Assembly: GCA_007134735.1 (NCBI GenBank) | Contig: SLKG01000065.1 | Span: 1 to 38,025 of the forward strand | Length of the DNA stretch: 38,025 nt | Source: Kiritimatiellia bacterium | Lineage (GTDB): Bacteria > Verrucomicrobiota > Kiritimatiellia > SLAD01 | Direction of reading: 5' to 3' | Shown: piece after piece, positions 6,714-37,291 of the stretch | Numbering within the stretch: the first letter of the stretch is position 1 | How the letters are laid out: every line of letters begins with the position of its first letter | Program-made: the position numbers and the translations under genes | Notes under the pieces: model-generated | Databases searched by the model: none | What the model was told of the DNA's origin: nothing | Seen by the model: only the letters and a program-made list of their open reading frames with translations

Positions 6714-7520
6714 ATGAATGCGCTCCGAACACTGACAACCTATCGCGAATTGCTCCATAACCTGGTGGTGCGGGATCTGAAAAGCCGGTACAAGGGATCC
6801 GTCCTGGGGTTTCTCTGGACAATCCTCACGCCGCTGTTCATGGCGGCCATCTACATCTTCTTTCTCCAGCTCATCGCCGGACGCGGTGTGACCATCCGGC
6901 ATGCGGACATCATCATCGGCGTCTTCGCGTGGACGTTCACGGTGCAAGCGGTGACCTCGGGCATGAACTGCATCACGGCCAACGCCAATCTCGTCAACAA
7001 GGTCTTTTTCCCCCGCATCATTCTTCCCGTCGCAACAGTGCTTTCGGCATTGATTACGTTTCTATTGATGGTCGTCGTACAACTCGTCCTGGTGGCCTTC
7101 CTGCTGTATCGGGAGGGCGGCACCATGAGTCCGTGGGTGATGGGCCTGCCCGTGCTCATCGCGTATCATTTGCTGTTCAATATGGCCGTTGTCTTTTTTG
7201 TTTCGGCTTCAAACGTGTATTTCCGGGACACCCAGCACATCGTGAACCTGCTGTTGAGTGCCTGGTTCTTCATGAGTCCCGTCATGTACACACTGGCCCT
7301 GGTCGATACCATGGCGGGGGAACGCGCATGGATTACGAACCTGTATCAACTGAATCCCCTGGCCGTGATCATTACCGGCTATCGCGCGCTCCACATGTCG
7401 GATACGGCCTTCCCGCTATCAGGGATGGCGTGGGCCGGCTGGCTCTGGCCGATAGCCCTGTTGATGGCGGGCTACGTGGTCTATCAACGCGCACAAAAAT
7501 ACTTTTCGGATTGGTTATGA
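6714..7520 (+). CDS. wzm: ABC-2 type polysaccharide/O-antigen export permease (Wzm-like)
   Basis: This 268-aa protein is of the usual length for Wzm/KpsM/TagG permeases. It begins with the cytoplasmic segment YRELLHNLVVRDLKSRYKGS, the hallmark N-terminal interface helix of the ABC2_membrane family, followed by LGFLWTILTPL and about six hydrophobic helices. Such permeases pair with an ATPase to move undecaprenyl-linked O-antigen, capsule or teichoic-type chains across the inner membrane. The stop TGA at 7518-7520 overlaps the ATG of the ATPase gene (ATGA), as is common for this pair. Upstream lies an 85-bp gap after the tandem membrane-protein genes, with an unconvincing TATAGT at 6692. The assignment as exporter permease is firm; the exact glycan is unknown. 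Confidence 0.93.
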   Translation: MNALRTLTTYRELLHNLVVRDLKSRYKGSVLGFLWTILTPLFMAAIYIFFLQLIAGRGVTIRHADIIIGVFAWTFTVQAVTSGMNCITANANLVNKVFFPRIILPVATVLSALITFLLMVVVQLVLVAFLLYREGGTMSPWVMGLPVLIAYHLLFNMAVVFFVSASNVYFRDTQHIVNLLLSAWFFMSPVMYTLALVDTMAGERAWITNLYQLNPLAVIITGYRALHMSDTAFPLSGMAWAGWLWPIALLMAGYVVYQRAQKYFSDWL

Positions 7521-8704
7521 GCATGGCTATTGAAGCACGGCATCTGGGCAAGGCCTACCGGGTACAGGGGATGGCCCCGCCGACCCTGTTCGGCACGGTG
7601 ACGCGCCTGATCCGGGGACAACCGCTGGAACAGTTCTGGGCACTGCGCAACGTGGATTTCAGCATTCCGAAAGGCCGTACCGTCGGCGTCATCGGCCCCA
7701 ACGGTTCCGGGAAAAGCTCTCTGCTCGGCCTCATCGCAGGCACCATCACCCCGACCGAGGGGGGCGTACGCACCGATGGGCGTATTTCTTCGCTCCTGGA
7801 ACTCGGTGCCGGTTTTCATCCGGACCTTACCGGCCGGGAGAACATTTACCTGAACGCCGCCATTCTCGGTATCGCGCACGAGGACGTGACCCGCCGGTTC
7901 GACCATATCGTGGATTTCGCGGGCTTGCGCGAATTCATCGACATGCCCGTCAAACATTATTCCAGCGGCATGTACGTGCGGCTGGGTTTCTCCGTGGCCA
8001 TCGAAATGAATCCGGACATCCTGCTGATCGACGAAGTGCTCGCGGTGGGAGACATGGCATTCCAAATGAAATGCCTCGACCGGATTCGCCTGTTTCAGAA
8101 ACAGGGAAAGACCCTCCTGATCGTCTCCCATGCGCTCGAAACGGTGGAACAGTTCTGCGACGAGGTCATACTGATCCACGAAGGGGAAAAGATCATGGAG
8201 GGGAAACCCGAGGAGGTCATTTTCTCCTATCTCAAGGAATACATGGTTCGCATCGGCATGCTCAACGTGGAGGAACACGGTACCCGCGAAGCCGAAATGA
8301 CCGATGTGGTTCTGCGCGATGAATATGAAAATGAGTGCACGCAGTTTGAAACGGGCGGCGCCATGATCGTGGACATTCATTACCACGCCCGACGGCGCAT
8401 CGATAAACCCGTCTTCGGCTTCAACATAAAGACCGGTAACGGATTCTACGTGTACGGTTCCAACACCCAGATTGAAAATGTCCCGATGGATCATATCGAG
8501 GGCCAAGGCGTCATGCGCCTTCGGATCGCGCCGCTCACACTGCAATCGGGCAATTTCTTTCTGTCGCTTTCCATTCACTCATGGGATCATTCCGTCCAGT
8601 ATCACCGGAGGGAGGACTGGCACCCGTTCGCCGTGCGCGATCCGCACGGCGCCCAGGGCGTGTTTCAGCTTCGGCATGCGTGGGCATTACAGGAGAAGGC
8701 GTAG
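7517..8704 (+). CDS. wzt: ABC transporter ATP-binding protein with C-terminal glycan-recognition domain (Wzt-like)
   Basis: ATG 7517 overlaps the permease stop and gives 395 residues; the frame is open further upstream, but only over permease coding sequence. Visible motifs are Walker A GPNGSGKSS (about residues 60-68), an ABC signature YSSGMYVRLGFSVA and Walker B DILLIDEVLAVGD. Residues about 250-395 form an extra beta-rich domain (VFGFNIKTGNGFYVYGSNT and following) matching the Wzt C-terminal fold. In O-antigen exporters that carry it, this domain binds the modified non-reducing end of the chain before export. Its presence suggests that chain length or end modification is sensed. Together with Wzm it forms the ABC export route of this locus. 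Confidence 0.94.
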   Translation: MSMAIEARHLGKAYRVQGMAPPTLFGTVTRLIRGQPLEQFWALRNVDFSIPKGRTVGVIGPNGSGKSSLLGLIAGTITPTEGGVRTDGRISSLLELGAGFHPDLTGRENIYLNAAILGIAHEDVTRRFDHIVDFAGLREFIDMPVKHYSSGMYVRLGFSVAIEMNPDILLIDEVLAVGDMAFQMKCLDRIRLFQKQGKTLLIVSHALETVEQFCDEVILIHEGEKIMEGKPEEVIFSYLKEYMVRIGMLNVEEHGTREAEMTDVVLRDEYENECTQFETGGAMIVDIHYHARRRIDKPVFGFNIKTGNGFYVYGSNTQIENVPMDHIEGQGVMRLRIAPLTLQSGNFFLSLSIHSWDHSVQYHRREDWHPFAVRDPHGAQGVFQLRHAWALQEKA

Positions 8705-19906: not shown

Positions 19907-22900
19907 TCATGGCGCCGGAGCAAGATCCACACGATGCACCATAATCCCCAACAAACGGCCGTCACGGCTATCGCTCACCAAAGCGGGCGACCACGGATTA
20001 CATTGAATCTCCAGTTCGTGGATACCGGTTCCCCATTCCTCCGGGGGCACGGTCGCCTCCCAGACGCGAAACGGCGGAAATTCGGACTCCCCCCTGTCGA
20101 CGCCGCTCAACGGCTGACCGTTCAGCCGGAAGTTGAGCCGGGCATCCCGCGCCTGTTTAGGGCGCGCATCGAAGTAGGTCACCCGCAAGCGCACGGAATC
20201 CGTGCCGGAAGGCTCAAAGAGTCGGAGAACCGATCGTTCCGAGGTCCAGCGAAAGGGAATGACATCATAATAGCGCTCGCGCCCGAAAAATCCCTCTCCG
20301 ATGAAGGGTTCGTCGTCCGTCGCGCCCACGGTAATCGTGCGGGGCACATCTCGCAGGATGGATCTCAAGCGTAACGCACTCAATTCGACCGGTCGCGCGC
20401 CCGATCGGCCAGGGTCCGCCCATTGCAGGGTTGCGAAAACGTCACGCGACGGCGCGGGAATCATCCATGCCGCGCCATGCACACCGTGCTCGACATAGGT
20501 CACGTGAGCAACGGTTTGCCCGTCCACCTGTACGAGCACCGGTGAATCCGTTTCGCCCGCATCGTCGCGACGCCATCGCAATTCCGCAAGAACCCCATAG
20601 GTATCGGCCGGCCAGATGGCGGGGACGCGTACGCGCCAATCCCCGCTCACGGTGACCGCCGTCCAAGGCGCCTCGCCCATGCTCCGGGAGGGGGCGTCCA
20701 GCAGATCCGTATGCGGAAGCTCGGCCAACGGTGAAACGGGCATGCCGATTGACTCGTCGACCGGAAGGACCGCGGCATGTAATTGCGCGGGAAGCGGTCC
20801 GTCCGATTCCAATTCGACAACCATTTCGTCACCCGAACGATTCCTCCGCATATGGATATAATGAAATCCGTTGGTCAACCGGTCGGACACGATTTCTCCG
20901 TCCACAACGAGCCGGGCAAACGTACGGGATAATCCGGGGCGCCATAAGCACCGGGTATCCGCCCTCAAGAGGAAGGTCTCTTCACCCGGAGCAGGCAATG
21001 TCGTTCGCGTGTGTTGGGTGGTCCAGGGTATCACGCGTAGAAACGGGGCTTCCCCTTCAATATCATACAGGCGGGTGATCAGGCGCAGGACCCCGTCCTG
21101 CCGGCCCTCCGGAGGAGCGGCATCCAGGGCATGTACCGCGCGGCCCTCCGCAAGCCAATCGGAAATCATCCGGGCAATACGTGTACAGCCGTCGGGGCCG
21201 TCATTCCAAACGGCATGCAACGAGACGGGATGGCCTCCGCCGTAGGCTGTCCAGATGCCGGCATAATAGCCATCCGCCAGGACCACATCGTTTTCCGGTA
21301 ATGTCGCGGCCCATTCTTGAAGACGCGCCTTTTCCCCATACCCGATCCAGGGTTGATGCGACCAGCCGTGTTTCATCCACCGATCGTGAGGCGCCTCACG
21401 CCAGGACCATCCGACAACAGCCGGCACATCACGCGCTTGCGGCATCGGCGCCGGTTTTTCTTCTACCAGGAATTCCATGCCGTGCAGAACCAGGGCAGGA
21501 CCTTCTTCCCCCAACTTCAGAGCGCGGGCATCGAAATACAGTTCCCCCGGGAACGACCACTTGAGTTCCTGCATGTAATCACTGATATGAGGATAGGTAT
21601 CCGTGGAATAGGTCTGGTTATAGAGGACCGTCAGCGGGATGAGATCACGTTCCCCTTGCCGATACGTAAGCCGGTGTATGACATCCAGCTCGTCCTGCGT
21701 ATCCGCGGCGGCGGAATAGTACAGGCGCAGCACGCCGTGATGGCGGTCTTCGCCCACCAGGTTCGGCGGACGTATCCGCGAATCCGGCCGCAGGTATATC
21801 CACGGAATGGATTGATGACGGCGGCTGAAGGCCGCGAAATCTCTCCACCACATTCGATATCCCGTCCAACGCAGCGCAACCCGGTCGAGATGTTGCAAAC
21901 GGGACGGCAATTTCGGATAATCGGAAAAATGCACGCGGATCGGTTCCGCGCCGTGCCAGGCCGCCTCGACCAGGGAAGGCAGCGGCCGGTCGCTCTGCAT
22001 CTCCAACCCCTCCGGTCTCGTGGTCAAATCACGGGGCATCATCAGTACATTGGCGCCGGGCCGCAAAGTCACCGGCCAGGGCCGCGGCCAGGACGCGTGC
22101 CGCAGAAGCACATCCTGCTTCGTGCCGGATGGACGGGTGTCGCGCATGAAGAGAAACAGCCGGTCCGGCGCTTCCGACTCCATGGCGACATCGAAGGCAA
22201 GCGCGCGCGCATCGCGTTCTTTCACGTGATAAAGTCTAACCCCATCGTGCCCCAGCGATTGAAAACGAAGCGCGGGGCCGAGCGGATCCAGGGCGTATCG
22301 ATTGAGAAGGGCGTCCAGAACCCATCCACGATCGTCCTGGTCCGGATACGATGCGAGTGTGGACATCCATAGCGGTGTTTGTTCGGGCAGGACGATGGTA
22401 GAGGGATCGGTCGCGGCCGCGCCGCGCGGTGTGAGCGTCCATTGATTCTGCACACCGCCAAAATAGAGACTCCATGTCAACAACCCGGGAGAAAGGATCA
22501 ACAGGGCGCCGTCGCCGGGCAGATACGTCTGCGTCCAGGATGCAAACCGTTGCGCATCCTCCCACTCCGCCGAAGCGGCGCTCCAATTCGGGCCGGACCG
22601 CAGGGCGGCCGCCCCCACTCCGACGGCCAGCAAGATCGTCATCGCCGCGCGCAAGAGGCGCGTTGCCGCAACGCGTCCATGGAGCAGTCCGCGAATCAGG
22701 GCCTCGAGAAGCCAACCCGCGCCCAGGGCCCCGATCGCCGTCGTGAACAGTACGATGATGAGGGAGTAACGGCCCACCACGGCGCCGTAACAGCCGTAGA
22801 AAAGAGCAAAGACCGCCGCGCCGGCGATCAGCGGCAACAGATGAAAGGCTTTCCTTCCAGCCTGGAATATCCATCCGGCGACACCGACGAGGCAGAGTAC

Positions 22901-23833
22901 GGATATCCACACGGGATAGACATGCCAGATCTGATACCGCAAGCGGGGCATCATCATGGGTAGATTTGCAGGATGCCATCCTCTACGGATCCGCCCCGGC
23001 TCCCCATCCACGGCATCACGGATAAACAGGCTATCGGCTTGAGGAACATGGGCGATGTGACGCCCTTCGAAAAGGTTCTGAGCGGCCAACAGGGCGACCC
23101 CGAGCGACAGGCCGGCGCCCAACCACAACAAGAAGGACACGCGGCGACGGAATGTGCCCCAGGTACCCGTGCACAACACCACGAGCGCGGCGGGCACAAA
23201 AAACAGGTAGCCCGGCAGCCGGACCCAGCCGCTTAAGCCGATCAGCAGTCCCGCCCAAAACACCCAGGCCGCGCGGCGTTTCGCGAGCGATTCGCCCGCC
23301 CACAGAACCAGCAACGCGCCGAACCCCAGCGTGTGTGACAGGGTGTCGCGAAACGGCAACGCCAATTCCCAGACGCGACCTGCCATCGTGGAGAAATGGA
23401 GCAGCAACAACAGACCCGCCAGCGCCGCCCATTCACGCCGGTGCGGTCGCCCATCCATCAGGGCGATGCACAGCGCAATGAACAGGAGCAGGAACGGCAG
23501 GAGCACCGCATTGACCAGGAAAGGGGCGCGATCCCCCATCTCACGCGCCAGAAGCAGCAGAACAGGGAAACCACCTTCGATGATGCTTACGTGACGGATC
23601 TCTTCGGGCGGAACGCCGTCTCGGCGCTGGGCCCATGCCTCGCGGTTGGCGGGAATGTATTCCCGGTCCAGGGTCACGTACGCGCGAAGTATGATCCCGG
23701 GATCACCGGTAAGCCAGTACCGGTGATGGCCCATACTCGTCCACAGCAGCACACCGAATACGATCAGAACCCATGCCGAACGCCCTGCGCGACGACCGGC
23801 CCCTTCGGTCTTATGGAAACAAGGACTCCTCAT
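19907..23833 (-). CDS. Very large GT-C-like polytopic membrane protein with long extracytoplasmic tail
   Basis: ATG 23833 gives 1308 residues; in-frame ATG 23863 and GTG 23902 are alternatives, none with a clear ribosome-binding site. Residues about 20-430 hold around eleven hydrophobic helices, with an acidic first loop (LTGDPGIILRAYVTLDREY) and a conserved FRDTLSH loop, the style of GT39/GT83 dolichol-phosphate-mannose-type transferases. The remaining 880 or so residues are outside the membrane. The last 340 are clearly related to the C-terminus of the 888-aa protein at 32523, sharing RTFAR, FRWTSER, a PWSP element and a final R-LGIM segment. The gene lies inside the segment flanked by the 48-bp direct repeats, between the flippase and its displaced tail. 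Transfer of a sugar from a polyprenyl carrier on the periplasmic face is inferred; no catalytic residue is proven. Confidence 0.82.
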   Translation of the reverse strand: MRSPCFHKTEGAGRRAGRSAWVLIVFGVLLWTSMGHHRYWLTGDPGIILRAYVTLDREYIPANREAWAQRRDGVPPEEIRHVSIIEGGFPVLLLLAREMGDRAPFLVNAVLLPFLLLFIALCIALMDGRPHRREWAALAGLLLLLHFSTMAGRVWELALPFRDTLSHTLGFGALLVLWAGESLAKRRAAWVFWAGLLIGLSGWVRLPGYLFFVPAALVVLCTGTWGTFRRRVSFLLWLGAGLSLGVALLAAQNLFEGRHIAHVPQADSLFIRDAVDGEPGRIRRGWHPANLPMMMPRLRYQIWHVYPVWISVLCLVGVAGWIFQAGRKAFHLLPLIAGAAVFALFYGCYGAVVGRYSLIIVLFTTAIGALGAGWLLEALIRGLLHGRVAATRLLRAAMTILLAVGVGAAALRSGPNWSAASAEWEDAQRFASWTQTYLPGDGALLILSPGLLTWSLYFGGVQNQWTLTPRGAAATDPSTIVLPEQTPLWMSTLASYPDQDDRGWVLDALLNRYALDPLGPALRFQSLGHDGVRLYHVKERDARALAFDVAMESEAPDRLFLFMRDTRPSGTKQDVLLRHASWPRPWPVTLRPGANVLMMPRDLTTRPEGLEMQSDRPLPSLVEAAWHGAEPIRVHFSDYPKLPSRLQHLDRVALRWTGYRMWWRDFAAFSRRHQSIPWIYLRPDSRIRPPNLVGEDRHHGVLRLYYSAAADTQDELDVIHRLTYRQGERDLIPLTVLYNQTYSTDTYPHISDYMQELKWSFPGELYFDARALKLGEEGPALVLHGMEFLVEEKPAPMPQARDVPAVVGWSWREAPHDRWMKHGWSHQPWIGYGEKARLQEWAATLPENDVVLADGYYAGIWTAYGGGHPVSLHAVWNDGPDGCTRIARMISDWLAEGRAVHALDAAPPEGRQDGVLRLITRLYDIEGEAPFLRVIPWTTQHTRTTLPAPGEETFLLRADTRCLWRPGLSRTFARLVVDGEIVSDRLTNGFHYIHMRRNRSGDEMVVELESDGPLPAQLHAAVLPVDESIGMPVSPLAELPHTDLLDAPSRSMGEAPWTAVTVSGDWRVRVPAIWPADTYGVLAELRWRRDDAGETDSPVLVQVDGQTVAHVTYVEHGVHGAAWMIPAPSRDVFATLQWADPGRSGARPVELSALRLRSILRDVPRTITVGATDDEPFIGEGFFGRERYYDVIPFRWTSERSVLRLFEPSGTDSVRLRVTYFDARPKQARDARLNFRLNGQPLSGVDRGESEFPPFRVWEATVPPEEWGTGIHELEIQCNPWSPALVSDSRDGRLLGIMVHRVDLAPAP

Positions 23834-24014
23834 TGTGTTGTCTGCCCGGCATCTCAACACCATTATGCAGGTTGGCAAGGGGGTACGCAGCGAATGACGC
23901 ACGGGGAAGGTCCGCCCTTTTCGCCCTGTCCGCTTCCAGCCTGACGCGGTTCAATAAGGCATGAGGCCATTTTCTTGTCACAACATACATTACCCGCATG
24001 GCATCGTGCGGACA

Positions 24015-25280
24015 TCATTCCGGCCGCAGAGCGTAGTACAGAATGCCGCCGTTGACAAGCAGGGTGCTGGTTGCCGCGCCGGCGACCAGCCCCCACGCAA
24101 ACGATTCCAGCGTGCCGTACCGCGCGAACAAGAAAAAACTGACCGCCGCCTGGACGAGCAGGCCCGCGATCAGCATGGCACTCAAGGTTTTCTGGCGGCC
24201 TATGGTCACATAGAATATGTTGGTGCCCAATACGGATATCAGCGCACCGCTGATCAACGCGATCCGGCCCGCGGGAACACCGGGGAGGTATTCGGGAAGC
24301 AACCATCGGGTCACGGGTTCCATCAGAAACCAGGCGATCACGATGCACGGAAGGAGAATCAGCAGCAAGGGGAGCAGGCTTTGCAGGGTGGTCCGCGCCA
24401 CCTTCCGCGGATTTCGAGTGCTCCCATAGACGCGGCCCAGAGCCGGAATCAATACACGGCTGATGGCATACTGAAAGATGCGCATCAGGCCGATCACGCT
24501 GATGGCCAGAACATAATAGCCCAGCGAGCGATCATCCATGAGAAAGGCAATCAGCGTACGATCCAGTCCGAAGGAGAGCAGCAGGAGGAAACGTGAAAAC
24601 AGAATGGGTAACCCATCGCGCACGAGAATCCGGGCGGTGGGTCCGTTCCAAGCGGGCCGATAAAAGGCTCGTGCCCGAACGATGCATATCACGGCGGGCA
24701 ACAGCGCCACAAGAAGCGTACGCAAGGTCAAACCCGGCGTCCCCCCCCATGCCAGTGGCAAAAAAACCCACCAGAGAACGCCCTCAAGGAAGAACAGGCG
24801 ATTGAGCTGGCTCAACCGGTTCTCCGCGGTGAACACCGCGCTCGCGTAATTCATGAAGAGCGTAATACCCGATAGCGTTCCCGCGCAAAGCAGTTTCCAC
24901 GCGAGGACACGCGATGCCTCGTCCTGGAACAGCAGGAGCCAGGCGGCCGCACCCAACAGCACACAGGTAGCCACGGACAACAGGCACACCATCGACGCAA
25001 CGCCCCACACATGCTGAACCTCGGCGCCTCGATCCTGCGCGCGCCGTATGGGAACCAACCGCTCCGCGCCGTTGAACACGCCGCCCGTGAACCAGAGCGC
25101 GTACATGGAAAAAATGCCGATCCACGCCACGAATCCAATGGCCTCCGGACCGGCAATGCGCGCGGCGATCAATGAGGCCGCTATGCGCAGAAACAGGCCG
25201 GCCCCACGCGCACTCATAAGGGAAAACAGGGAACGCGTCAACGCGCTCGGGGAATCCACGGAAACGGGGGGCGCACTCAC
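24015..25280 (-). CDS. wzx: Oligosaccharide flippase (Wzx-like, MOP superfamily)
   Basis: I use GTG 25280, which overlaps the stop of the upstream pyruvyl transferase as GTGA and gives 421 residues, the normal Wzx length. Longer in-frame extensions only cover antisense-of-other-frame sequence in the neighbour. The protein has about twelve hydrophobic helices, starting SLMSARGAGLFLRIAASLIA and including FVAWIGIFSMYALWF, and ends LLVNGGILYYALRPE. Wzx proteins flip undecaprenyl-linked repeat units across the inner membrane. It is the third gene of an operon with NeuB-like and pyruvyl-transferase genes. The 3' end (24017-24064) is duplicated 4.2 kb downstream, and here it stops right at the repeat border, whereas the remnant copy runs eight codons past the repeat. 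Confidence 0.88.
   Translation of the reverse strand: MSAPPVSVDSPSALTRSLFSLMSARGAGLFLRIAASLIAARIAGPEAIGFVAWIGIFSMYALWFTGGVFNGAERLVPIRRAQDRGAEVQHVWGVASMVCLLSVATCVLLGAAAWLLLFQDEASRVLAWKLLCAGTLSGITLFMNYASAVFTAENRLSQLNRLFFLEGVLWWVFLPLAWGGTPGLTLRTLLVALLPAVICIVRARAFYRPAWNGPTARILVRDGLPILFSRFLLLLSFGLDRTLIAFLMDDRSLGYYVLAISVIGLMRIFQYAISRVLIPALGRVYGSTRNPRKVARTTLQSLLPLLLILLPCIVIAWFLMEPVTRWLLPEYLPGVPAGRIALISGALISVLGTNIFYVTIGRQKTLSAMLIAGLLVQAAVSFFLFARYGTLESFAWGLVAGAATSTLLVNGGILYYALRPE
24017..24064. repeat. Direct repeat, proximal copy (flippase 3' end)
   Basis: This is the last coding part of the complete flippase gene and matches 19816-19863 at 46 of 48 positions (offset 4201). The repeat ends within the stop codon, consistent with an insertion or duplication junction there. 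Confidence 0.9.
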
Positions 25281-26554
25281 CGTACCCCGCTCGTTCCCGC
25301 CGGTGTGACAACCGACGGCCCTCCGGCCGGCTCCCGCACCAGTCGCTCCCGAACCATCTCGCCCATGCGTCGCACACGGGTTCGTAATTCGCCGGACCGC
25401 TCCTTCACACGCACGCGCAGCGCCTTGCCGCCATCCATCGCATGGCGCGCCTCGCGTTCGATGGATTCGACAGCGCCCCACAGATCCGTCGGATCGAAGG
25501 GCGTGGGCATCACGTCCCCCATCAACTCCGACAGCCCCTGCACCTTGGGCGACGTGCTGATCAAGGGAACGGAGGGGCAACCGACGTTCGAGGCCATGAT
25601 AAGGTGGTGATAGCGGCCGGAAAACAGGAAGCGCGCGTCGCGCAGAATCGTCATGACATCCCGGAAGGACTGGTCCTGCCCGAAGAACAGCGATCCGGTA
25701 TCCTCCGCAACCGCGCGCAGAAACTGATCCTCCGGATCCTTGGCCATCAACACCGCCTGTGGCACAAGTTGCTTGAGCCGATGGATCACATGATGCAGGG
25801 AGGATTGATCCCGGGTACGCCTGAAATCCATCGGCAGCATCGAAAGGCTGAAGCAGAAGTAGGGCCGGTCGCCCACCCGGGCGCGGAACGCTTCAAGTCC
25901 CGGGCCGGCCGGCGAGCACTCCGATTCGTCGAACAAAAATACGGCGTCGGGAACCAGTTCGGCGCGCGCGTCCGGGACCGCCTGTTGGACCATGCGCAGC
26001 GCGTTGGGTACGCGCACCGTAATTCCGTCCAAAACGCGGAACACCTTGCGCACCATGGCCGGGAGGATGGGGTCCACCTCGGTCAGTGTGACATTGCCGT
26101 TCAGAAAGAATGCAGGCTTATTGAAACGGGTTTTCGCGAGCCAGAGCATGAACAGACATTTAAGGGCCGAGTGATTGTTCCGGTATGTGCTGCCCTCGGC
26201 ATTGAAAACTACCGCATCGGCGTCTCCAACCCGGTCCAGAAAATCCCGGGCACCCGATCCGCCCTTTCCCGCCATCCACTGTTCCGCCACATACTCATAT
26301 TCATCGACCACTTCCGGCAACAGGTGGTAGCGGGATGTGATCCGGTCGGCCAGGAAACTGGTCCGGTTGAATGCGCGCCGCCCGAACACCCACGGATCCC
26401 ACCGATAGATTCGCCCCACCCACCGTGAATCCAGCGACGTGTACGTCACGCCGGGAAGGGCTTCCGTCAGGATGGTTTTCAATGCCTCGATGTTCGCCAG
26501 CGAACCCCAATTGGAATGATCGGATGTGTCGTTCAGAATGAAAACGTTAGGCAT
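25277..26554 (-). CDS. Polysaccharide pyruvyl transferase family protein (CsaB/WcaK-like)
   Basis: ATG 26554, preceded by an AAAGAAAG-type purine stretch, gives 425 residues. The N-terminal strand VFILNDTSDHSNWGSLANIEA has the glycine-rich turn of the family. AVVFNAEGSTYRNN follows in the first half. The C-terminal domain carries ARFLFSGRYHHLIMASNVGC with PLISTSPKVQGL, the conserved R-H-H and K segments of PS_pyruv_trans proteins that use phosphoenolpyruvate to form ketals on sugar residues. The C-terminal 60 residues are basic and helical. Co-location with NeuB-like and CMP-nonulosonate genes is notable, as some family members act on other substrates; the exact acceptor is unknown. The stop overlaps the flippase GTG. 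Confidence 0.88.
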   Translation of the reverse strand: MPNVFILNDTSDHSNWGSLANIEALKTILTEALPGVTYTSLDSRWVGRIYRWDPWVFGRRAFNRTSFLADRITSRYHLLPEVVDEYEYVAEQWMAGKGGSGARDFLDRVGDADAVVFNAEGSTYRNNHSALKCLFMLWLAKTRFNKPAFFLNGNVTLTEVDPILPAMVRKVFRVLDGITVRVPNALRMVQQAVPDARAELVPDAVFLFDESECSPAGPGLEAFRARVGDRPYFCFSLSMLPMDFRRTRDQSSLHHVIHRLKQLVPQAVLMAKDPEDQFLRAVAEDTGSLFFGQDQSFRDVMTILRDARFLFSGRYHHLIMASNVGCPSVPLISTSPKVQGLSELMGDVMPTPFDPTDLWGAVESIEREARHAMDGGKALRVRVKERSGELRTRVRRMGEMVRERLVREPAGGPSVVTPAGTSGVR

Positions 26555-26591
26555 AAATCGTTCTTTCTTTATTTGCGCCGCGTCATGATCT

Positions 26592-27470
26592 CTAGTAGCC
26601 GCGGAATTTCCTGCGGTTCTCCAGCTCGGACGGCAGAGGCGCCTTGTCCGGACGGCCCAACGCCTTGAAGAAATTACGTGATCGGCGCACCAATAAGGCC
26701 ATGCCCTCCGGCTCCGCCGAGGCCGCATGGTCCGGTCCTTTCATGGTCCGGTCAAGGGTGAAATGCCGTTCGATGACGCACGCACCCATGAGAACCGCAC
26801 CCGGAGAGATGGACACCCCCCGCTCGTGCCCGGAGAATCCGACAAGACAATCATAGCGCTCTTGCAGCATGGGAATCACCCGGAAATGGATATCCTCAAA
26901 CTCGGTCGGATAGGCCGAGGTGGCCTGCAAAAGCACAAAATTTTCCGTGTGTTTCCGGATCCGTTCGATTGCCTGATCGATCTCCTCCAGAGACGACATG
27001 CCGCAGGAAATCAAGATCGGCTTGCCGGTTTGGCAGACGCGTTCTATCAGCGCGGAATCCGTCAGGTGAAAGGACGAGATTTTGTACAGCGGCACATTCA
27101 GCCGTTCCAACATGTCCACCGACACGACATCGAAGGGCGTGGAAAAAAAGATGAGTCCCAGGCTTTCTGAAAGATCACGCAACTCACGCATCTGCTCCTC
27201 GGTCAGTTCCAACGCATACTTGTGTTCACGATATGTGGCGCCGAATGAGTTGGGGCCCGTATACGGCTTGTCGAGCAAGTCTTTCGGAAAGGCCGTTTCG
27301 ATATTCTTGGACTGAAACTTTACGGCATCCACGCCCGCTTCTGCCGCCTTGCGAAGCAGTTCGCGGGCAATGTCCATGTCTCCATTGTGGTTGTTGCCGA
27401 TCTCGGCAATGATAAACGGCCATTCGCCGTCTCCGATCGCCCGGTGAGGGGTCACCTGTATCTTCTTCAT
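26592..27470 (-). CDS. neuB: N-acetylneuraminate/nonulosonate synthase-like (NeuB TIM barrel, lacking SAF domain)
   Basis: ATG 27470 has an AGGA site about 8 bases upstream and gives 292 residues. The barrel carries PFIIAEIGNNHNGDMDIA at the N-terminus, then DAVKFQSKNIETAF, ISCGMSSLEEID and LVGFSGHERGVSISPGAVLMG with VIERHFTLDRTMKGPDHAAS. These match the active-site segments of NeuB/LegI/PseI enzymes, which condense PEP with a six-carbon N-acyl sugar. Standard NeuB proteins have about 340-350 residues with a C-terminal antifreeze-like SAF domain that closes the active site. Here the sequence ends at ENRRKFRGY, where that domain would begin, with a stop codon and then the next gene 37 bp later. 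It is the first gene of the minus-strand operon and faces a divergent GT4. Confidence 0.9.
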   Translation of the reverse strand: MKKIQVTPHRAIGDGEWPFIIAEIGNNHNGDMDIARELLRKAAEAGVDAVKFQSKNIETAFPKDLLDKPYTGPNSFGATYREHKYALELTEEQMRELRDLSESLGLIFFSTPFDVVSVDMLERLNVPLYKISSFHLTDSALIERVCQTGKPILISCGMSSLEEIDQAIERIRKHTENFVLLQATSAYPTEFEDIHFRVIPMLQERYDCLVGFSGHERGVSISPGAVLMGACVIERHFTLDRTMKGPDHAASAEPEGMALLVRRSRNFFKALGRPDKAPLPSELENRRKFRGY

Positions 27471-27655
27471 ATCGTGTCCTGCCCCCGGCATCTCATTTGG
27501 CCGGTTCGTTGGTCGGAATCCCGTTGTACCGCACAGGGGTGCGCCGCCCTGGCGGATGTGCATGGTTGAATGCGACTGTACCAGACCCGCGCCGCAACAA
27601 ACCAGTCCAAAACCGCTGAATTCCTTCCACCACCCGGTCGTTCCGGAATGAAAGG

Positions 27656-27683
27656 TCGACCGCACCGGAAACACCGTTATAAT
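27656..27683 (+). promoter_or_regulatory. Possible promoter with perfect TATAAT -10
   Basis: TATAAT at 27678-27683 is a perfect -10. TCGACC at 27656-27661 (four of six consensus bases) lies 16 bp upstream. Transcription would start about 27690, next to ATG 27691. The alternative ATG 27682 overlaps the -10 itself and is unlikely to be used. Confidence 0.45.
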
Positions 27684-27690
27684 GCCTCCC

Positions 27691-28842
27691 ATGTCCAAAG
27701 CCCTGATGTTGTCCTACTGGAACGTGAACGATCCCGCGTTTGGCGGGGGGCGACGCATCAACGCACTAATAGACGCTCTCGCGGGCCGCGTGCTGTTGTG
27801 TCAGCCCGGCGCTCCCCACGATGCCTGCGAAACCGCCGTGTACAAAACGGATTTCGGAAGGCGGAAACGCGGAATCAACTGGGGCATGTTCAATTTCTTC
27901 TGGCCGGCGAACGCCGCATGCGTCGGGCGTCTCGTAACCGAACGTGCTCCCCCGGTCATCATCATGACCTCCATGTGGAATTATCATCCCCTGCGCCGCG
28001 TCATCGAAACACCGATCGTTTTGGACGCGCACGACGTCAATGCCGTCGCCGTGGGAGAGCGCATGGGTGTTCGTCATCCCTTCACGCGCATGGTCCGGTC
28101 GTGGGAAGCCCGGGTGGTCCGTGCCGTCGATCACCTGTTTGCCTGCTCGGAGCGGGACCGCGAGCAATTCATAGCGCTCTACGATCTCCCGCCGGAACGC
28201 GTGACGGTCGTACCCAACGGCGTCTACGTCACGCGGCATGAACCGCCGGCCGTCGGGACCGACGACCGGTTGCCGGACGATCTCGAGCGATCACTAAAGG
28301 ACGCCACCGTGCTCATGTTCATGGGTAAACTGGACTACCAACCAAACGTCGAAGCGCTGACGTTTCTAAACGAAAAGGTCATGCCGGCGCTGGAACAAAT
28401 CCGCCCGAACGGCTTTCGGCTCCTCGTGTGCGGAGGCCCCAGGCCGGACCGGATGCTTCATCCCTCCGTGATCCCGGCCGGCGTCCTGTCCACCGCCCGC
28501 TTGATGGCCGCCCTGCGGCGGGCGGATATATGCCTCGCGCCGATCTCGTCGGGTTCCGGAACGCGCTTGAAGATACTGGAATACATGGCCTCCGCGAAAC
28601 CGGTCGTCACCACGGCCAAGGGCGCGGAGGGCATCGATGCGCAGCCGGATCGCGATTGGATCGTCGCGGACCCATCCGAGTTTGCGGAGCGCATTGTCGA
28701 CCTGACTCATCACCCCGAACGCGCCGCCCGGATGGGAGCCGCGGCGCGAGTATTCGTAACACAACGGTACGACTGGAAGACCCGTATAGCGCCCCGCTGG
28801 CAAAGGGTGCTGGCGCAATGGATGCCCCCCGTTGCCGTGTAA
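27691..28842 (+). CDS. Glycosyltransferase family 4 (GT-B)
   Basis: ATG 27691 gives 383 residues; ATG 27682 is also in frame but lies in the putative -10 box. The N-terminal strand ALMLSYWNVNDPAFGGGRRINALIDAL has the glycine-rich loop of GT4 proteins. VVPNGVYV, LMFMGKLDYQPNVEAL and the donor-site segment APISSGSGTRLKILEYMASAKPVV follow in order; the G-T-R-K-E pattern marks the retaining GT4 active site. The gene starts 220 bp from the divergent NeuB-like gene and is followed after 41 bp by a GT2. Its donor and acceptor are unknown; chain extension of the surface glycan is the likely role. Confidence 0.9.
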   Translation: MSKALMLSYWNVNDPAFGGGRRINALIDALAGRVLLCQPGAPHDACETAVYKTDFGRRKRGINWGMFNFFWPANAACVGRLVTERAPPVIIMTSMWNYHPLRRVIETPIVLDAHDVNAVAVGERMGVRHPFTRMVRSWEARVVRAVDHLFACSERDREQFIALYDLPPERVTVVPNGVYVTRHEPPAVGTDDRLPDDLERSLKDATVLMFMGKLDYQPNVEALTFLNEKVMPALEQIRPNGFRLLVCGGPRPDRMLHPSVIPAGVLSTARLMAALRRADICLAPISSGSGTRLKILEYMASAKPVVTTAKGAEGIDAQPDRDWIVADPSEFAERIVDLTHHPERAARMGAAARVFVTQRYDWKTRIAPRWQRVLAQWMPPVAV

Positions 28843-31077: not shown

Positions 31078-32526
31078 ATGAAAATGCCCTTTACCATCAT
31101 CAACAGCGGCCTCGCGGAACGTCATTTCCATACCGCACTGGCTCGTGAACTATCAAAACGCGGTCATCCCGTGCATGCCGTGGTCCTGGGCTCCCGCTAT
31201 GCGAATATGTACCGGACGACGAACTGTTACGAGGAGGTAACGGACCTTTCAGAATGGATGCGGGATCACTGGGAAACGGACCGCCATGTCCTGCTGGATC
31301 GAGCGCGGGCGATTGACGAGCAGTACGCGCCGCCGGGCCTGTGGCAGATGCTGGCCGCCGACCGCCGCATCCGTCGACGCGACCACGACTTCAATCTGCG
31401 TGCCGCTTGCGCGCAGGTCGCATTTTGGGAACAGCACTTTGACACGATAGCGCCGGGACTGGTCATCGGCGAAGTCAGCCACCTGCACAACTATATCCCC
31501 TGGGCGGTCGGCCGCCGATACGGCATTCCGTTCGCGCATTTAATCGCCGCGCGTATCCGTGGGCATACGGCCATCGGAGACGGCCCGATGGAGCATAAAA
31601 ACACGGTCGCGACCCACTACGAACGCTTTCGCCATGAAGGCACGCCGGAAGATCTTCAGCGCAAGGCCGAGGAGTACATCGCCGGTTGCCGCGCGCAGGC
31701 ACAACGCGCGCCGCACATCCCGCCCGTAAAGAAGTGGTATCAGGACCCCGTCGACATCGGTTCGGTGCCGGGCCTGTTGCAGGGGCTCAAGACATGGTAT
31801 TCATGGGAACGCAAGTACAATTATTTCCTGACCGCCCCGACCGCAAAGATTGGAACCTGGTGCCGACAAAAGGCCCTGCGCAGTTGGATGACCGTCACGC
31901 GACGCTATTTCGATGATATCCAGGGCATGACGGACCCGTTTGTGTTGTTTGCCCTGCACCTGCAACCCGAATCGTCCACGATGGTGCGCGGTCAATGCTT
32001 TCAGGACATGCTGTCCGTGGTGCGCAACTTCGCGCTGAGCCTGCCGGCCGGGTACCGGCTGTATGTAAAGGAGCACGACGTGATGTTCGGTCAGCGTCCG
32101 CTCGCATTCTTTCACGAACTGAAACACATGCCCAACGTGGTCCGCGTATCGCCCTATGAAAGCGGGCCGGACCTCGTACGCCGTTCCTCGGCGGTGGCCG
32201 CCATCACGGGCACGACCGCCTGGGAGGCCGCCATGCTCGGCAAACCGGTGGTCATGCTGGGGCATTCCTTTTTCGACATGTACCGGGGGATCGACCGAAT
32301 CACCGACCCGACCGGGCTTCCCGATGTGTTTCGCGAACGATTGCGACACTTTGAACACGACGAACAGGACCTGGTAACATTTGTCGCCGCCGTCTTTGCG
32401 TCCATCGTACCGGCCAGCATGGACGACCTGCGGGGCTTGCGCAGTCCGGACGATGTGGAAGGCGCCGGCGCGCTGGCCAAAGCCCTGATCGAGCGCGCGA
32501 CCGAAAACAGTGGAACCACCCCATGA
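31078..32526 (+). CDS. Capsule polysaccharide synthesis family protein (KpsS/LipB-like)
   Basis: I place the start at ATG 31078 (482 aa); GTG 31063 and ATG 31084 are alternatives. The second half carries FVLFALHLQPESSTMVRG, a RLYVKEHDVMFGQR segment, NVVRVSPYESGPDLVRRSS and ITGTTAWEAAMLGKPVVMLG. These are the hallmark stretches of the Capsule_synth (PF05159-type) GT-B proteins, such as KpsS and KpsC, that build the Kdo linker on lipid. The first 240 or so residues are less recognisable. No other kps genes are seen here, so a different sugar donor is possible. Its TGA overlaps the ATG of the following GT-C-like protein, coupling transfer to membrane assembly. Confidence 0.85.
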   Translation: MKMPFTIINSGLAERHFHTALARELSKRGHPVHAVVLGSRYANMYRTTNCYEEVTDLSEWMRDHWETDRHVLLDRARAIDEQYAPPGLWQMLAADRRIRRRDHDFNLRAACAQVAFWEQHFDTIAPGLVIGEVSHLHNYIPWAVGRRYGIPFAHLIAARIRGHTAIGDGPMEHKNTVATHYERFRHEGTPEDLQRKAEEYIAGCRAQAQRAPHIPPVKKWYQDPVDIGSVPGLLQGLKTWYSWERKYNYFLTAPTAKIGTWCRQKALRSWMTVTRRYFDDIQGMTDPFVLFALHLQPESSTMVRGQCFQDMLSVVRNFALSLPAGYRLYVKEHDVMFGQRPLAFFHELKHMPNVVRVSPYESGPDLVRRSSAVAAITGTTAWEAAMLGKPVVMLGHSFFDMYRGIDRITDPTGLPDVFRERLRHFEHDEQDLVTFVAAVFASIVPASMDDLRGLRSPDDVEGAGALAKALIERATENSGTTP

Positions 32527-35189
32527 ACCCGTCCGCGCAGACCGAACGGCCCGCGTCACCCGCGCCGAATGCGAAGGGTATGTGGAGTCTGCTGATCGCC
32601 GGAAGCCTGTTCCTTACCGCCCTCTTTATCTGGACGGCATGGCAGCATTTCTCGATTCGATCCTTTTCCGACCCGTATAATTATCTGATGGTTGCGCGGG
32701 ATCTGGTGAACGAGTTCCGCTCCAGCCGTTGGCCGGCCGCCTATCCCGCGTATCTCTGGCTCGCGTTGAGAGTCGTCGGACCGTACCATGTGTTCCTGGC
32801 CAACGTGCCCCTGGTTGCGTTGCTGTTGGGCCTGACGGGCACGGTGACCGCCCTTGCCGTTCGGCGCGAGCCCGGCCCGCGCGTCGCCGAAGCGGGGCTC
32901 ATCGGATTAGGCGCAGTCAGTCTATTGATCGTGTTCGATCCAGACGTCCTGATGATCCTGGCCGATCCTTATCGCGATCCGCTTTCTCATGTGTTTCTTT
33001 CATGCGCCGCGCTGTTTCTTCTTCTTTTCCTCGGCACACCGGAAGCGCGGATGCGGTGGATCGGAGTCTCCGGATTGATGTTGGGGCTGGCGGCGAGCGT
33101 GCGGGAACCCGCGATCCTGTTCGCGGGGCCGATGGTACTGACGGCGCTAATGGTCCGGCGCCATGGCGGGCGTTTCCCCCTGCGGCCCGCGGCGTTATGG
33201 TTCGCCGCCGGCACCGCCATCGGCCTGTTGCCGATCCTGGCCCAGATGTACCTGGCCACCGGTCAAGTCCTGGTCCCGCCTCAGGCGGTACAGGAAGAAA
33301 CCCTCTTTCCGGGGTTCGTCCCCGCCCGGGCAGGAACCAATATGCGGCGCGCACTGACGTACTACGCACTTCAAAGCAAATGGATGGCGCCCGCCGCCTT
33401 CCTCACGGGCATCGGTTTTGCCCTGGCGCGCCGCAATCGTTTGCTCCTCTTGCTGTTCGCAACGACGGCGCTCCTGTACGCCGTGCTCTACACGCATTAT
33501 CGCATGTTTGTCCCGCGGTATTTCTTTATTACCACGCTCTGGGCCGCCCCGATCGCCGCATACGGCCTGTACCATGCGGCGGACTCCATCCTGCGCCTCG
33601 CTCGCCGATCCCGCTGGCGGCCGGTCGCATGGACGGGACTGACCTGCCTGTTAATGGCATGGGCGGGCATGCGTATGCTCGAGCTTGAGGCACCGGCCAT
33701 CCGTTTTCTCCCCGAACATGCCCGCACCTTCAAGAAGGATATCGAAGAACATGTGCCGCCGGGCGCATTTGTCGTGAGCCCGCGCAATCTGTGCGAAGTC
33801 ATCGGCTACTTCACGCACGCGGATTCATGGCGCGCCTGGGCCATGCTGTACCCCGATTTTCGATCGGATGCGCCGGTGTATGAACGATTTCGCTCCATGC
33901 TGGATGAAAACCGACCGCTGTATCTAATGGAACTGGATTCCCCCGGCGCCAGCAATCCGGACATGATCATCTTTCGCCGCTATTTCGATCTGGAGCCCAT
34001 CGCCACATTCGACAGCGCGCGGTATAATCTCCAGCCTATCGCCGGACCGGGCTCGATGACCCTCCACCATGTCCGCCCCTGGACATCGAATACCGCGTAC
34101 GTCGCCCTGGGCCCTGTTTCCGCCGATTCCACCCTGCAATGGGATGTCGGGCGATTGTGGCGGGATGACATGCCCCGCACGTTTGCAAGGGTGTATCTGA
34201 ACAATGAGCCGCTCGGCGAAGTCCGGCACAACGACATTCAGTATTTCCGTCTCCCCGAAACGGAGGACGCGCATCTGGAGTTGCGATCGGACGCACCGGT
34301 TCCGCAATCGCCGTCCCCCGCCGTCCTCGCGGGCCACCAACCGATTCACCTCGACTTCGGCCTGCTGAGCGCCTCCAGCCATGACGCCTTCCTGTCCGAC
34401 TCCATCCTGGAGGAACCGGTCCATCGCGGCTACGTCCGGATATGGGGCGGAGAGGGCCGTATACGCCTGCCACCGCTCTGGACACCCGAAATGCGGGTGA
34501 TGGGCCGGCTGGCCGTTCGGGCAACCCGCGCAGATGAAATCATTCCCGTATCACTGGAATTCCATCTACCGGACGCCCCCGCACAAACCGTTACCTTCCA
34601 CGCATCGCGCCGCTTCGACTTGATCCCCATCCTCCTCCCCGGCGGGTTTAAGGAAGAGCAACACATCGGCATGCGTATCATCGGCGAGGAAACGCTCGAA
34701 CTGAATTTTCTCACGCTGTTCCCGCACGTACCCGCCCGCGCGTTTCACATTGATATCGGAACGGAAGAGGACGATCCGCATCTGCTCGAAGGATTCTATC
34801 ACCGGGAACGGCATCATCGGCAAATTCCCGTACGCTGGACTTCGGAGCGGGCGTCCTTGTTCTTCCATGTCGACCAGGTGGACATCGACATGATCGTCAC
34901 ACTCGGTTACGTGGACATCCCGCGTCCCGCCGATGCGCCCCCGCCGAACCTGCAACTTCATTTCAACGGCACGGAACTGGACCCGGCCACGTACGACTAC
35001 GACACCACCAAGCGGGGCGTCCGTCTCAAGGCGGTCGTCCCCCACGAACAGGTCCGGCACGGCGAGAACCGGCTCGATATCGTCGTCGAACCGTGGTCTC
35101 CCCTGGCCTACGGTGTGAGCCGGGATTCCCGGCAACTCGGCATCATGTTGGACACCGTCAAATTACAGTGCCTCCGCTTGACCCCATGA
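32523..35189 (+). CDS. Large GT-C-like polytopic membrane protein with extracytoplasmic C-terminal domains
   Basis: The 888-aa protein starts at ATG 32523, overlapping the KpsS-like stop. Residues about 18-390 form ten or more hydrophobic helices, with an early SDPYNYLMVARDLV loop and a YRDPLSHVF loop that mirror the 1308-aa protein at 19907 (FRDTLSH), plus VREPAILFAGP after it. Residues about 400-550 are soluble. The last 340 residues are homologous to the C-terminus of the 1308-aa protein, with RTFAR, VRWTSER, PWSP and R-LGIM landmarks; the final module (about residues 755-888) is beta-rich. The fold suggests a periplasmic-facing polyprenyl-sugar-dependent transferase with glycan-binding tails. 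Its stop overlaps the next gene's ATG. Confidence 0.83.
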   Translation: MNPSAQTERPASPAPNAKGMWSLLIAGSLFLTALFIWTAWQHFSIRSFSDPYNYLMVARDLVNEFRSSRWPAAYPAYLWLALRVVGPYHVFLANVPLVALLLGLTGTVTALAVRREPGPRVAEAGLIGLGAVSLLIVFDPDVLMILADPYRDPLSHVFLSCAALFLLLFLGTPEARMRWIGVSGLMLGLAASVREPAILFAGPMVLTALMVRRHGGRFPLRPAALWFAAGTAIGLLPILAQMYLATGQVLVPPQAVQEETLFPGFVPARAGTNMRRALTYYALQSKWMAPAAFLTGIGFALARRNRLLLLLFATTALLYAVLYTHYRMFVPRYFFITTLWAAPIAAYGLYHAADSILRLARRSRWRPVAWTGLTCLLMAWAGMRMLELEAPAIRFLPEHARTFKKDIEEHVPPGAFVVSPRNLCEVIGYFTHADSWRAWAMLYPDFRSDAPVYERFRSMLDENRPLYLMELDSPGASNPDMIIFRRYFDLEPIATFDSARYNLQPIAGPGSMTLHHVRPWTSNTAYVALGPVSADSTLQWDVGRLWRDDMPRTFARVYLNNEPLGEVRHNDIQYFRLPETEDAHLELRSDAPVPQSPSPAVLAGHQPIHLDFGLLSASSHDAFLSDSILEEPVHRGYVRIWGGEGRIRLPPLWTPEMRVMGRLAVRATRADEIIPVSLEFHLPDAPAQTVTFHASRRFDLIPILLPGGFKEEQHIGMRIIGEETLELNFLTLFPHVPARAFHIDIGTEEDDPHLLEGFYHRERHHRQIPVRWTSERASLFFHVDQVDIDMIVTLGYVDIPRPADAPPPNLQLHFNGTELDPATYDYDTTKRGVRLKAVVPHEQVRHGENRLDIVVEPWSPLAYGVSRDSRQLGIMLDTVKLQCLRLTP

Positions 35190-37291
35190 ACATCATCACC
35201 AACAGTACGGTCGACTTGAATCCGTGGTTCCTCGCAACGGTTCATCTGCTTTGGTGGATAGGGTTGCCCGGCGTCGCATGGGGTTGGCGGTTGCCGGCAT
35301 GGCGTAAAACCGAAGCCTCGGGACGGGCCCACCTGCTGATGAGCACGACCCGAATCCTGGTATCGGGACTCTTGATAACCCTGCTCGTCGCGCTCGTGTT
35401 GATACGCGCAGGCTTATTCACGGCCCCGGCGCACGGCATCGCGGTCACGGCAATCTCCGTGGTGGGGCTCGTCACGGGCCTGCGCCGTCATCGCGACGAT
35501 TTTATCGCGTGTGCGCGGCAGGGGTTGCCCGGTATCTGCGTGTGCGCGATCGGCTTCATCGCGATCATGTGGACGCCGAAGTGCGGCGAGTGGATTGTGG
35601 GCGGTTGGGATCCCGGTATTTATATCAACAATGGCGTTGTCATCGCCCGCGAAGGCGGTGACCGGTTTGCGCCCTCCGCGGCCTTTACGGCATTGACCTA
35701 CGAGGAACTGACCCTCTATACGCGCATCTTCGACGAAAAAGTGTACGAAGTCTTTCCGGGTGTGCCGATTGACCCGGAAACGCGTGAATATCGCCTGTAC
35801 TTCTTTCCGCTCATGTCGGCCTGGGTGGCTCTCCTGGAGCTTGCGGGCGGCCTGCGCGCCGCCACGCGCGCGAACCTGTTCGCCGGCTGGCTGCAGCTAC
35901 TGCTCATCCCCGCCCTGCTGCTGGCGCTAACCCAACGAAAGGCCTATGCCTTCTTTGCCCTGCCGTTTCTATGGATGCAACCCGTCTGGCTATACCATCT
36001 CGCCACGCCAACCTCCGAAATGCTGCAAATGCTCCTGCTGTGCGGCCTTCTTTTCTTAACGCCGTTCCGCACGGAATCCCGCAGCGCCGTCATCATGTTG
36101 GGCGGACTTCTCCTGCTTTCCGTCGTCAATCGTTTGGGCTTCCTGCCGTTCGGCGCGCTGTTTGTCGTCGTCCTCGCCTGGCTGGACGCCGGGCGCCCGG
36201 AGCGTGCCCGTGTAGGACGTGAACAGGCGTGGTACCTTGCCTGCCTCTTTCTGGGTGCGTGGATCGATTTTGTGTGGGCCACCAGCACCATCGGGCGATT
36301 GGGCGATATCGTGCCGACGCTGCTCATGGCGAGCGCAGGTTTCGCGGCGCTGGCCTTCGCGATTCATATCGCCGCCCATCGCGCCGTCGTGCGCGCGTTC
36401 CTGTCCCGTATCGACGGCCTGTTGCGTGGTGCCGGGGCCGCATCGATACTTGTCGTGATCTTGCTCTTATGGCGCGGCACACATCGATTCGGACTGGAAA
36501 TCTCCTCGCAGACGTTTCAAGGCATCCTGCCCTTCTTCACCCCTTCCCTTGTGCTCATGGGCCTTTTGGGATTCTTTCTGCTCGCCTTCGATCGGCGGCC
36601 CGGCTTCCGCACATTGTCCTGGTGGACGCTGTTTCTTGCCTCATCCGTCCTCTTCCTGCTTCTGCAACGACATATTGCGGGGCTGTACCCGTGGGCCACG
36701 CGCCGTTTCGTTACGGAGTTGACCCTGCTGCTGGTCATCGGCGCCGCCTATCCCGTCTACCGGCTATGGGCATGGCGCGGGATTCCGCGTTGGACCGCGC
36801 GTGCCGCCGCCATCCTGCTGTGCGCGGTCGTCCTGGCGCCGGCATCGAAACAGGCGTACCGCGCCGCATCGCAAACCGAATACGACGGCTTGTCCCGCGT
36901 GCTGAACGAAGTGGCACAACACATCGATCCCGACGACATCGTTGTCGCCGACCACTTCAAGTGGGGCACGCCGCTCGCCCTGATTCATGGCCGGCAGATC
37001 ATCAACGGGGAACGCCTTTGGGCGATACGGGACGACGAGCGGATAGAACACGGTGTCGAGGCCCTTCGCCGCATGGCCGCCGAGGGCCAACGCGTCCGCT
37101 TCCTAACGTCCACCGAGCGGCGACTTGATGTGTACCGCTGGCCGGTGGAAGGAGCCCGGGAGGACTGGCGCGCCGAACCGTTCACGCATACGGAATTCAT
37201 CCACCATCCACGCGGCTCGACGTTCGTCCTCCGCACCAATCAGGTTGTTTTTACGCTCTATACATGGGAAGGCGCCGCGGCGGCGCCGTGA
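35186..37291 (+). CDS. GT-C-like polytopic membrane protein
   Basis: ATG 35186 overlaps the previous stop (ATGA) and gives 701 residues, mostly hydrophobic. After two helices the sequence GGWDPGIYINNGVVIAREGG appears, resembling the first extracytoplasmic loop of GT39/GT83 polyprenyl-phosphate sugar transferases, where an Asp is catalytic. Then come YFFPLMSAWVALLELAGGL, about ten further helices and a short C-terminal soluble part (about residues 565-701) with DDIVVADHFKWGTPLAL. Unlike the other giants here it lacks a long beta-rich tail. It is last of the KpsS-like operon. Its TGA abuts the stop codon of the converging CotH-like gene. Donor and acceptor unknown. Confidence 0.82.
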   Translation: MNIITNSTVDLNPWFLATVHLLWWIGLPGVAWGWRLPAWRKTEASGRAHLLMSTTRILVSGLLITLLVALVLIRAGLFTAPAHGIAVTAISVVGLVTGLRRHRDDFIACARQGLPGICVCAIGFIAIMWTPKCGEWIVGGWDPGIYINNGVVIAREGGDRFAPSAAFTALTYEELTLYTRIFDEKVYEVFPGVPIDPETREYRLYFFPLMSAWVALLELAGGLRAATRANLFAGWLQLLLIPALLLALTQRKAYAFFALPFLWMQPVWLYHLATPTSEMLQMLLLCGLLFLTPFRTESRSAVIMLGGLLLLSVVNRLGFLPFGALFVVVLAWLDAGRPERARVGREQAWYLACLFLGAWIDFVWATSTIGRLGDIVPTLLMASAGFAALAFAIHIAAHRAVVRAFLSRIDGLLRGAGAASILVVILLLWRGTHRFGLEISSQTFQGILPFFTPSLVLMGLLGFFLLAFDRRPGFRTLSWWTLFLASSVLFLLLQRHIAGLYPWATRRFVTELTLLLVIGAAYPVYRLWAWRGIPRWTARAAAILLCAVVLAPASKQAYRAASQTEYDGLSRVLNEVAQHIDPDDIVVADHFKWGTPLALIHGRQIINGERLWAIRDDERIEHGVEALRRMAAEGQRVRFLTSTERRLDVYRWPVEGAREDWRAEPFTHTEFIHHPRGSTFVLRTNQVVFTLYTWEGAAAAP

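Follow-up and report, generated by a model that had tools for sequence, protein, structure and literature searches.

Overall, our sequence comparisons indicate that two membrane proteins of a Kiritimatiellia bacterium, P0001 and P0002, are paralogues along their whole architecture and not unrelated proteins that share a tail. We put the probability at about 0.58 that both are GT-C transferases that use a lipid-linked donor and hold the acceptor glycan with their tail. The last module of that tail is, judging from its profile matches, a mobile domain that is reused across GT-C-like, GT2, GT4, hydrolase-like and lyase-like proteins. Both genes lie in a stretch of 38,025 nucleotides (hereafter the window; NCBI contig SLKG01000065.1), which is contig 28 of a genome of 2.58 Mb in 167 contigs.

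Homology of P0001 and P0002

P0001 (1331 aa; 19907..23902, minus strand, start codon uncertain) is a GT-C-like membrane protein that ends in a long tail, and sequence alignment identified the GT-C-like membrane protein P0002 (888 aa; 32523..35189, plus strand) as its paralogue. A sequence-only reading of this DNA had proposed that the two proteins share a C-terminal region of about 340 residues with four landmarks, although their genes are on opposite strands and 9 kb apart. The similarity was borne out, since the alignment of P0001 residues 950-1327 to P0002 residues 510-881 covers 383 columns with 29% identity (106 bits, E 3e-27), and both proteins contain a single copy of each landmark (RTFAR, RWTSER, PWSP and LGIM). 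The opposite strands also held, but the distance between the genes is 8.6 kb, and the shared region extends slightly further than supposed, covering about 19922-21055 on the minus strand and 34050-35165 on the plus strand.

An identity of 29-30% might in principle reflect chance or composition. This explanation was rejected as extremely improbable on the alignment E-value, on the tail-to-tail Smith-Waterman score, which was 283 against a mean of 38.6 (sd 5.6, maximum 66) in 1000 shuffles of one tail, and on the recurrence of the P0001 tail in 23 of 97 related genomes (E<=0.001). Residues 111-429 of P0001 also align with about residues 73-386 of P0002 (phmmer domain E 2.5e-12 and 5.5e-11); because the membrane halves are homologous as well, the genes are whole-protein paralogues. 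Compared with P0002, P0001 has about 400 extra residues between its membrane half and its tail. A contig search with the profile alignment A4 returned a single locus, on a Kiritimatiellae MAG contig (isolate CSSed165cm_580), and no P0002 relative was found in the viral contigs searched.

Membrane halves

The membrane halves correspond to residues 111-429 of P0001 (22616..23572, minus strand) and residues 73-381 of P0002 (32739..33665, plus strand). In PMC11127046, GT-C enzymes are defined by an N-terminal part with 7-13 membrane helices; strict hydropathy gave 9-10 membrane segments in P0001 and 6 in P0002. By reading of the alignment, an Asp follows the first membrane segment at the same aligned position in P0001 and P0002, as well as in 14 of the 16 family rows, the other two rows being one without this residue and one truncated. 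GT-C enzymes have an Asp in the first extracytoplasmic loop, and the aligned Asp of P0001 and P0002 occupies this place. We infer that it is catalytic, as in GT-C enzymes.

No Pfam or NCBIfam GT-C family scored above its cut-off for either protein. P0001 had no Pfam match at E<=1, P0002 matched LonC_helical at 0.23 only, and the sole NCBIfam hit was the LA_3751/LA_3752 putative glycosyltransferase (E 0.02, 13.7 bits vs a cut-off of 200). Therefore, we filed both proteins as GT-C-like, and GT-C activity, its periplasmic side and the lipid-linked donor are presented here as predictions.

Three tail modules and their predicted folds

Three modules make up the tail, with lengths of about 107 (module 1), about 123 (module 2) and about 138 residues (module 3). 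Module 1, delimited with a module-1 HMM, covers residues 953-1059 of P0001 (20726..21046, minus strand) and 512-615 of P0002 (34056..34367, plus strand). The extra region of P0001 contains a second copy at residues 556-659 (21926..22237, minus strand; module-1 HMM E 2.7e-6, hhalign 91.5%). By profile comparison, module 1 is related to module 3 but degenerate (hhalign 80.7%, E 1.3e-5; 93.1% against a wider set of module-3 relatives), and the same comparison with the DUF7024 set described below gave nothing (0.1%). Module 1 is also present, with weak scores, in proteins lacking module 3 near some relatives. Module 2 lies at residues 1061-1184 of P0001 (20351..20722, minus strand), as placed by alignment and by the fold match of the P0002 copy, and at residues 617-737 of P0002 (34371..34733, plus strand), where the tail model shows a CBM35/CBM6-like fold. 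It could not be detected as a copy of module 3 (hhalign 4.9%). Module 3 occupies residues 1190-1327 of P0001 (19922..20335, minus strand), defined by profile, fold model and conservation, and residues 743-881 of P0002 (34749..35165, plus strand), defined by profile and conservation.

Modelled as a whole from three sequences, the P0002 tail had a mean pLDDT of 53.5 and showed three modules that were beta throughout. The final 130 or so residues had been described as beta-rich, which agrees with module 3, but beta structure extends over the whole modelled tail. In this model, module 2 was closest to CBM35/CBM6 (Z 10.2, rmsd 2.3-2.5 over 101 residues), and we assigned it, with modest confidence, a jelly roll of that type. 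Because the whole-tail model was weak for modules 1 and 3, module 3 of P0001 was modelled separately from a three-row alignment (mean pLDDT 64.8, pTM 0.64). Its residues 41-120 were modelled well (67-90 per block of ten) and residues 1-35 and 121-134 poorly. Many of the invariant residues fall within these two poor stretches, so no binding site was mapped on module 3.

The best structural match of module 3 was BcsB (Z 9.2, rmsd 3.9 over 125 residues); the C-terminal domains of GH86 and GH156 and CBM35 (Z 8.6, rmsd 3.1 over 109 residues) were also matched, and the jelly rolls of ephrin receptors and Cry proteins, which are not sugar-binding, scored shortly below. These Z values barely exceed the level that the structure-comparison tool calls common. 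With modest confidence, module 3 is a predicted galactose-binding-like jelly roll of the kind seen in BcsB and CBM35; the jelly-roll fold class is likely, with the nearest family left between BcsB, CBM35 and others. The fold prediction proposed in the sequence-only reading has therefore yielded CBM-like jelly rolls for modules 2 and 3 at modest model confidence, a likeness to CBM35/CBM6 and BcsB that holds at the level of fold and does not imply function.

The first place of BcsB for module 3, its recurrence in the Foldseek lists for the modelled tail modules, and the length and multi-modular build of the tail would also fit a docking or scaffold region that keeps the transferases together in a periplasmic assembly or steers the chain, as BcsB does with cellulose synthase, and that does not recognize a particular sugar. 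We consider this unlikely, as module 2 is closest to sugar-binding modules and module 3 is likewise found in hydrolase-like and lyase-like proteins, for which no assembly of this kind exists.

Spread and partners of module 3

Fifty-six stretches with module 3 were listed for the conservation analysis, and 53 were kept after three of under 100 residues were dropped. In P0001 numbering, E1209, W1219, D1314, R1316 and L1318 are invariant in all 53 modules, and P1306 (49/53), G1319 (47/53), G1204 (46/53) and R1218 (46/53) are nearly so.

A search of genomes for the same tail was carried out with a module-3 profile, A2 (the last 148 residues, 20 rows), which matched 41 of 288 genomes of the phylum, including proteins that are not GT-C-like. 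In the genome that contains the window, the profile matched three places: P0001, P0002 and, on contig 38, the end of a GT4-like frame cut by the contig end (L081 2830-3525, minus strand). From the matching places, 47 stretches were fetched, which together with the window gave 49 open reading frames with module 3, a set chosen by the module-3 match and not a census. Of these 49, 24 have at least six membrane segments by strict hydropathy, six are GH42/GH14-like, three are pectate-lyase-like, one is a GT2 and one a GT4 enzyme; the remaining 14 are contig-end fragments or proteins without a named partner. The named partners are, by their family matches, all carbohydrate enzymes. The tail had been thought to define a family of periplasmic sugar transferases, and this does not hold for module 3, given its presence in the hydrolase-like, lyase-like, GT2 and GT4 proteins. 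Among the loci examined, modules 1 and 2 come closer than module 3 to marking a GT-C-like subfamily.

The position and number of module 3 vary among these proteins. In the GH42/GH14-like L043, L045, L048, L089, L097 and L098, it lies about 80-125 residues ahead of the C-terminus. Tandem copies occur in L090, L091, L092 and L093, of which L090 and L091 are large membrane proteins with two tandem C-terminal copies and an LA_3751/LA_3752 match under the cut-off. L094, L095 and L096, which had no Pfam match, consist almost entirely of one module 3 behind a hydrophobic segment.

The five invariant residues could be a folding signature; jelly rolls are common folds, and module 3 stands at the very end of several partners. 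On these grounds it might be a purely structural C-terminal cap or spacer that binds no ligand and stabilizes carbohydrate-active enzymes. We regard such a role as improbable, since it does not explain the tandem copies in L090-L093 or the single-module proteins L094-L096, of 180-191 aa. GT4 and GT2 enzymes are usually cytosolic, and partners of these kinds fit a glycan-recognition module better than a module tied to the periplasm.

Relation of module 3 to DUF7024

Known domains under the tail were sought by sequence, and nothing credible was found. Module 3 of P0001 and P0002 had no Pfam match, NCBIfam had no match under either tail, and the PDB sequence search gave no credible match for the two-row tail profile (best E 0.39) and none for P0001; no CBM family appeared in the Pfam and PDB searches of the tail. 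Kinship of module 3 with the Wzt_C region of P0016 or the C-termini of P0013 and P0014, encoded in the same window, was also rejected (profile comparison under 1%).

The link to a described family came through tandem-copy relatives. Pfam DUF7024 (PF22895) is matched by L092 (1.1e-22) and, under the cut-off, by L093 (6.6e-4), and in Escherichia coli OpgB the DUF7024 domain is C-terminal (residues 616-759, E 1.3e-65). Compared with OpgB and the L092 and L093 copies, the module-3 profile scored 97.2% (E 4e-11), and the Wzt_C and P0013/P0014 C-terminal controls scored below 1%. Run directly on OpgB as a one-sequence database, the module-3 HMM gave marginal values (E 0.0043 for the widened model and 0.1 for the narrow model), and the link is therefore founded on profile-profile comparison and intermediate sequences. 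PF22895 itself matched four genomes in a phylum set of 288 that was sampled like the one for module 3, and its matches in genomes G120 and G224 coincide with places found by the module-3 profile. It gave none in P0001 or P0002 at E<=1 and none in their own genome, and its gathering cut-off was not reached. From these comparisons, module 3 and DUF7024 are related at the superfamily level only, and the branch of P0001 and P0002 is one outside Pfam coverage.

DUF7024 of OpgB has the conserved G, E, RW, P and R-x-LG of module 3 in the same order; of the nine conserved positions it keeps all except the D, where OpgB has S. OpgB is a phosphoglycerol transferase, whereas P0001 and P0002 are GT-C-like. 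According to PMC3818809, OpgB moves phosphoglycerol onto periplasmic glucans using its periplasmic domain. The open-access literature searched contained no paper naming DUF7024.

Gene cluster

By its domain matches, the locus is a polysaccharide cluster with a Wzt_C domain, a flippase-like protein and glycosyltransferases. Pfam matches in the cluster include a Polysacc_synt_3 protein, a pyruvyltransferase, NeuB, GT4 and GT2 enzymes and a capsule-synthesis-like protein. The flippase-like Polysacc_synt_3 protein P0005 adjoins P0001 (24015..25580, minus strand; frame as listed, with a later true start probable). An ABC-2 transporter (6714-7517, plus strand) and an ATPase bearing a Wzt_C domain (6929-8701, plus strand), both assigned by domain match, point to an ABC-dependent export route alongside the flippase-like gene of the same cluster. 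The genes for a NeuB-family synthase (26592-27698, minus strand; Pfam E 5.5e-77) and a polysaccharide pyruvyltransferase (25277-26728, minus strand; Pfam) suggest that the polysaccharide contains an acidic or nonulosonic-acid-like sugar. The GT2 enzyme P0009 (28884..29897, plus strand), a candidate donor maker, is closest to polyprenyl- and dolichyl-phosphate sugar synthases though it scores under every equivalog cut-off, and this similarity is consistent with periplasmic transfer from a lipid-linked donor.

Directly downstream of P0002 is P0004, a tail-less membrane protein that is GT-C-like by inspection only (35093..37291, plus strand) and had no blastp match with P0001 or P0002. P0013 (1252-4005, plus strand) and P0014 (3977-6625, plus strand) are tandem paralogues, 43.6% identical over 883 columns, with hydrophobic N-terminal parts, a C-terminal region different from the P0001/P0002 tail and no Pfam match. 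A 231-aa frame (37292-37987, minus strand) matches part of a CotH kinase and a divergent InlB B-repeat. Near tail proteins of six relatives, 7 of 10 neighbours, selected by hand for large size and closeness to the tail genes, match glycosyltransferase families; the remaining three match LPG_synthase_TM, DUF354 and GDSL lipase.

Discussion

From these data we propose a putative mechanism in which the paralogues P0001 and P0002 act as GT-C-type glycosyltransferases in the inner membrane and serve a surface-polysaccharide cluster. A sugar carried on polyprenyl phosphate, a donor plausibly made by the neighbouring GT2 enzyme P0009, would be picked up by the membrane half and transferred on the periplasmic side. 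The tail, with its three jelly-roll-like modules, would keep the acceptor glycan close to the active site, a role reported for the CBMs of ORF12 (GT136), EmbC and AftD, and its last module falls within a mobile superfamily of domains of which Pfam DUF7024 is also a member.

The closest precedent in architecture is ORF12 (GT136) of Citrobacter youngae O1, described in PMC11127046 as a GT-C enzyme with a C-terminal CBM. Its layout resembles that of P0001 and P0002, with a GT-C half in the membrane ahead of a beta-rich extracytoplasmic region at the C-terminus, and it too comes from a polysaccharide cluster with an ABC exporter. The CBM of ORF12 is, however, a single Ig-like domain of about 150 residues, and P0001 and P0002 have at least three modules in at least 380 residues. 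According to the same paper, the isolated ORF12 CBM binds acceptor LPS and not control LPS, and it is dispensable, as the truncated enzyme was active under the conditions tested. The arabinosyltransferases EmbA/B/C and AftD are given there as further GT-C enzymes with acceptor-interacting CBMs, the interaction being noted for EmbC and AftD (PMC11127046). They belong to other organisms and act on another polymer than P0001 and P0002, and neither P0001 nor the two-row tail profile matched them when searched against PDB sequences. In the open-access literature searched, we found no paper on Kiritimatiellota glycosyltransferases in exopolysaccharide and none on verrucomicrobial GT-C glycosyltransferases with a carbohydrate-binding module.

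The sequence-only reading had offered glycan binding or complex docking as roles of the tail. The CBM-like folds, the carbohydrate-enzyme partners, the link to OpgB and the ORF12 precedent make glycan binding the best-supported reading, in which the tail is predicted to bind the acceptor glycan. P0001 and P0002 are best seen as a variation on the pairing of GT-C with CBM, and their terminal module as a mobile relative of DUF7024 that escapes Pfam.

We further speculate, at somewhat less than even odds, that module 3 and DUF7024 form an unrecognized glycan-binding superfamily with the signature G-x4-E ... RW ... P-x7-D-x-R-x-LG. Its users would be enzymes that build glycans (GT-C-like, GT2 and GT4), decorate them (OpgB) and degrade them (GH42/GH14-like and pectate-lyase-like). 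If true, this would assign a function to DUF7024 and add a new family to the CBMs, and it offers a testable function for the domain of unknown function carried by E. coli OpgB. For Kiritimatiellae and related bacteria, the module-3 profile, which reaches about ten times as many phylum genomes as the nearest Pfam model, provides a handle on GT-C-like transferases that have so far gone unannotated.
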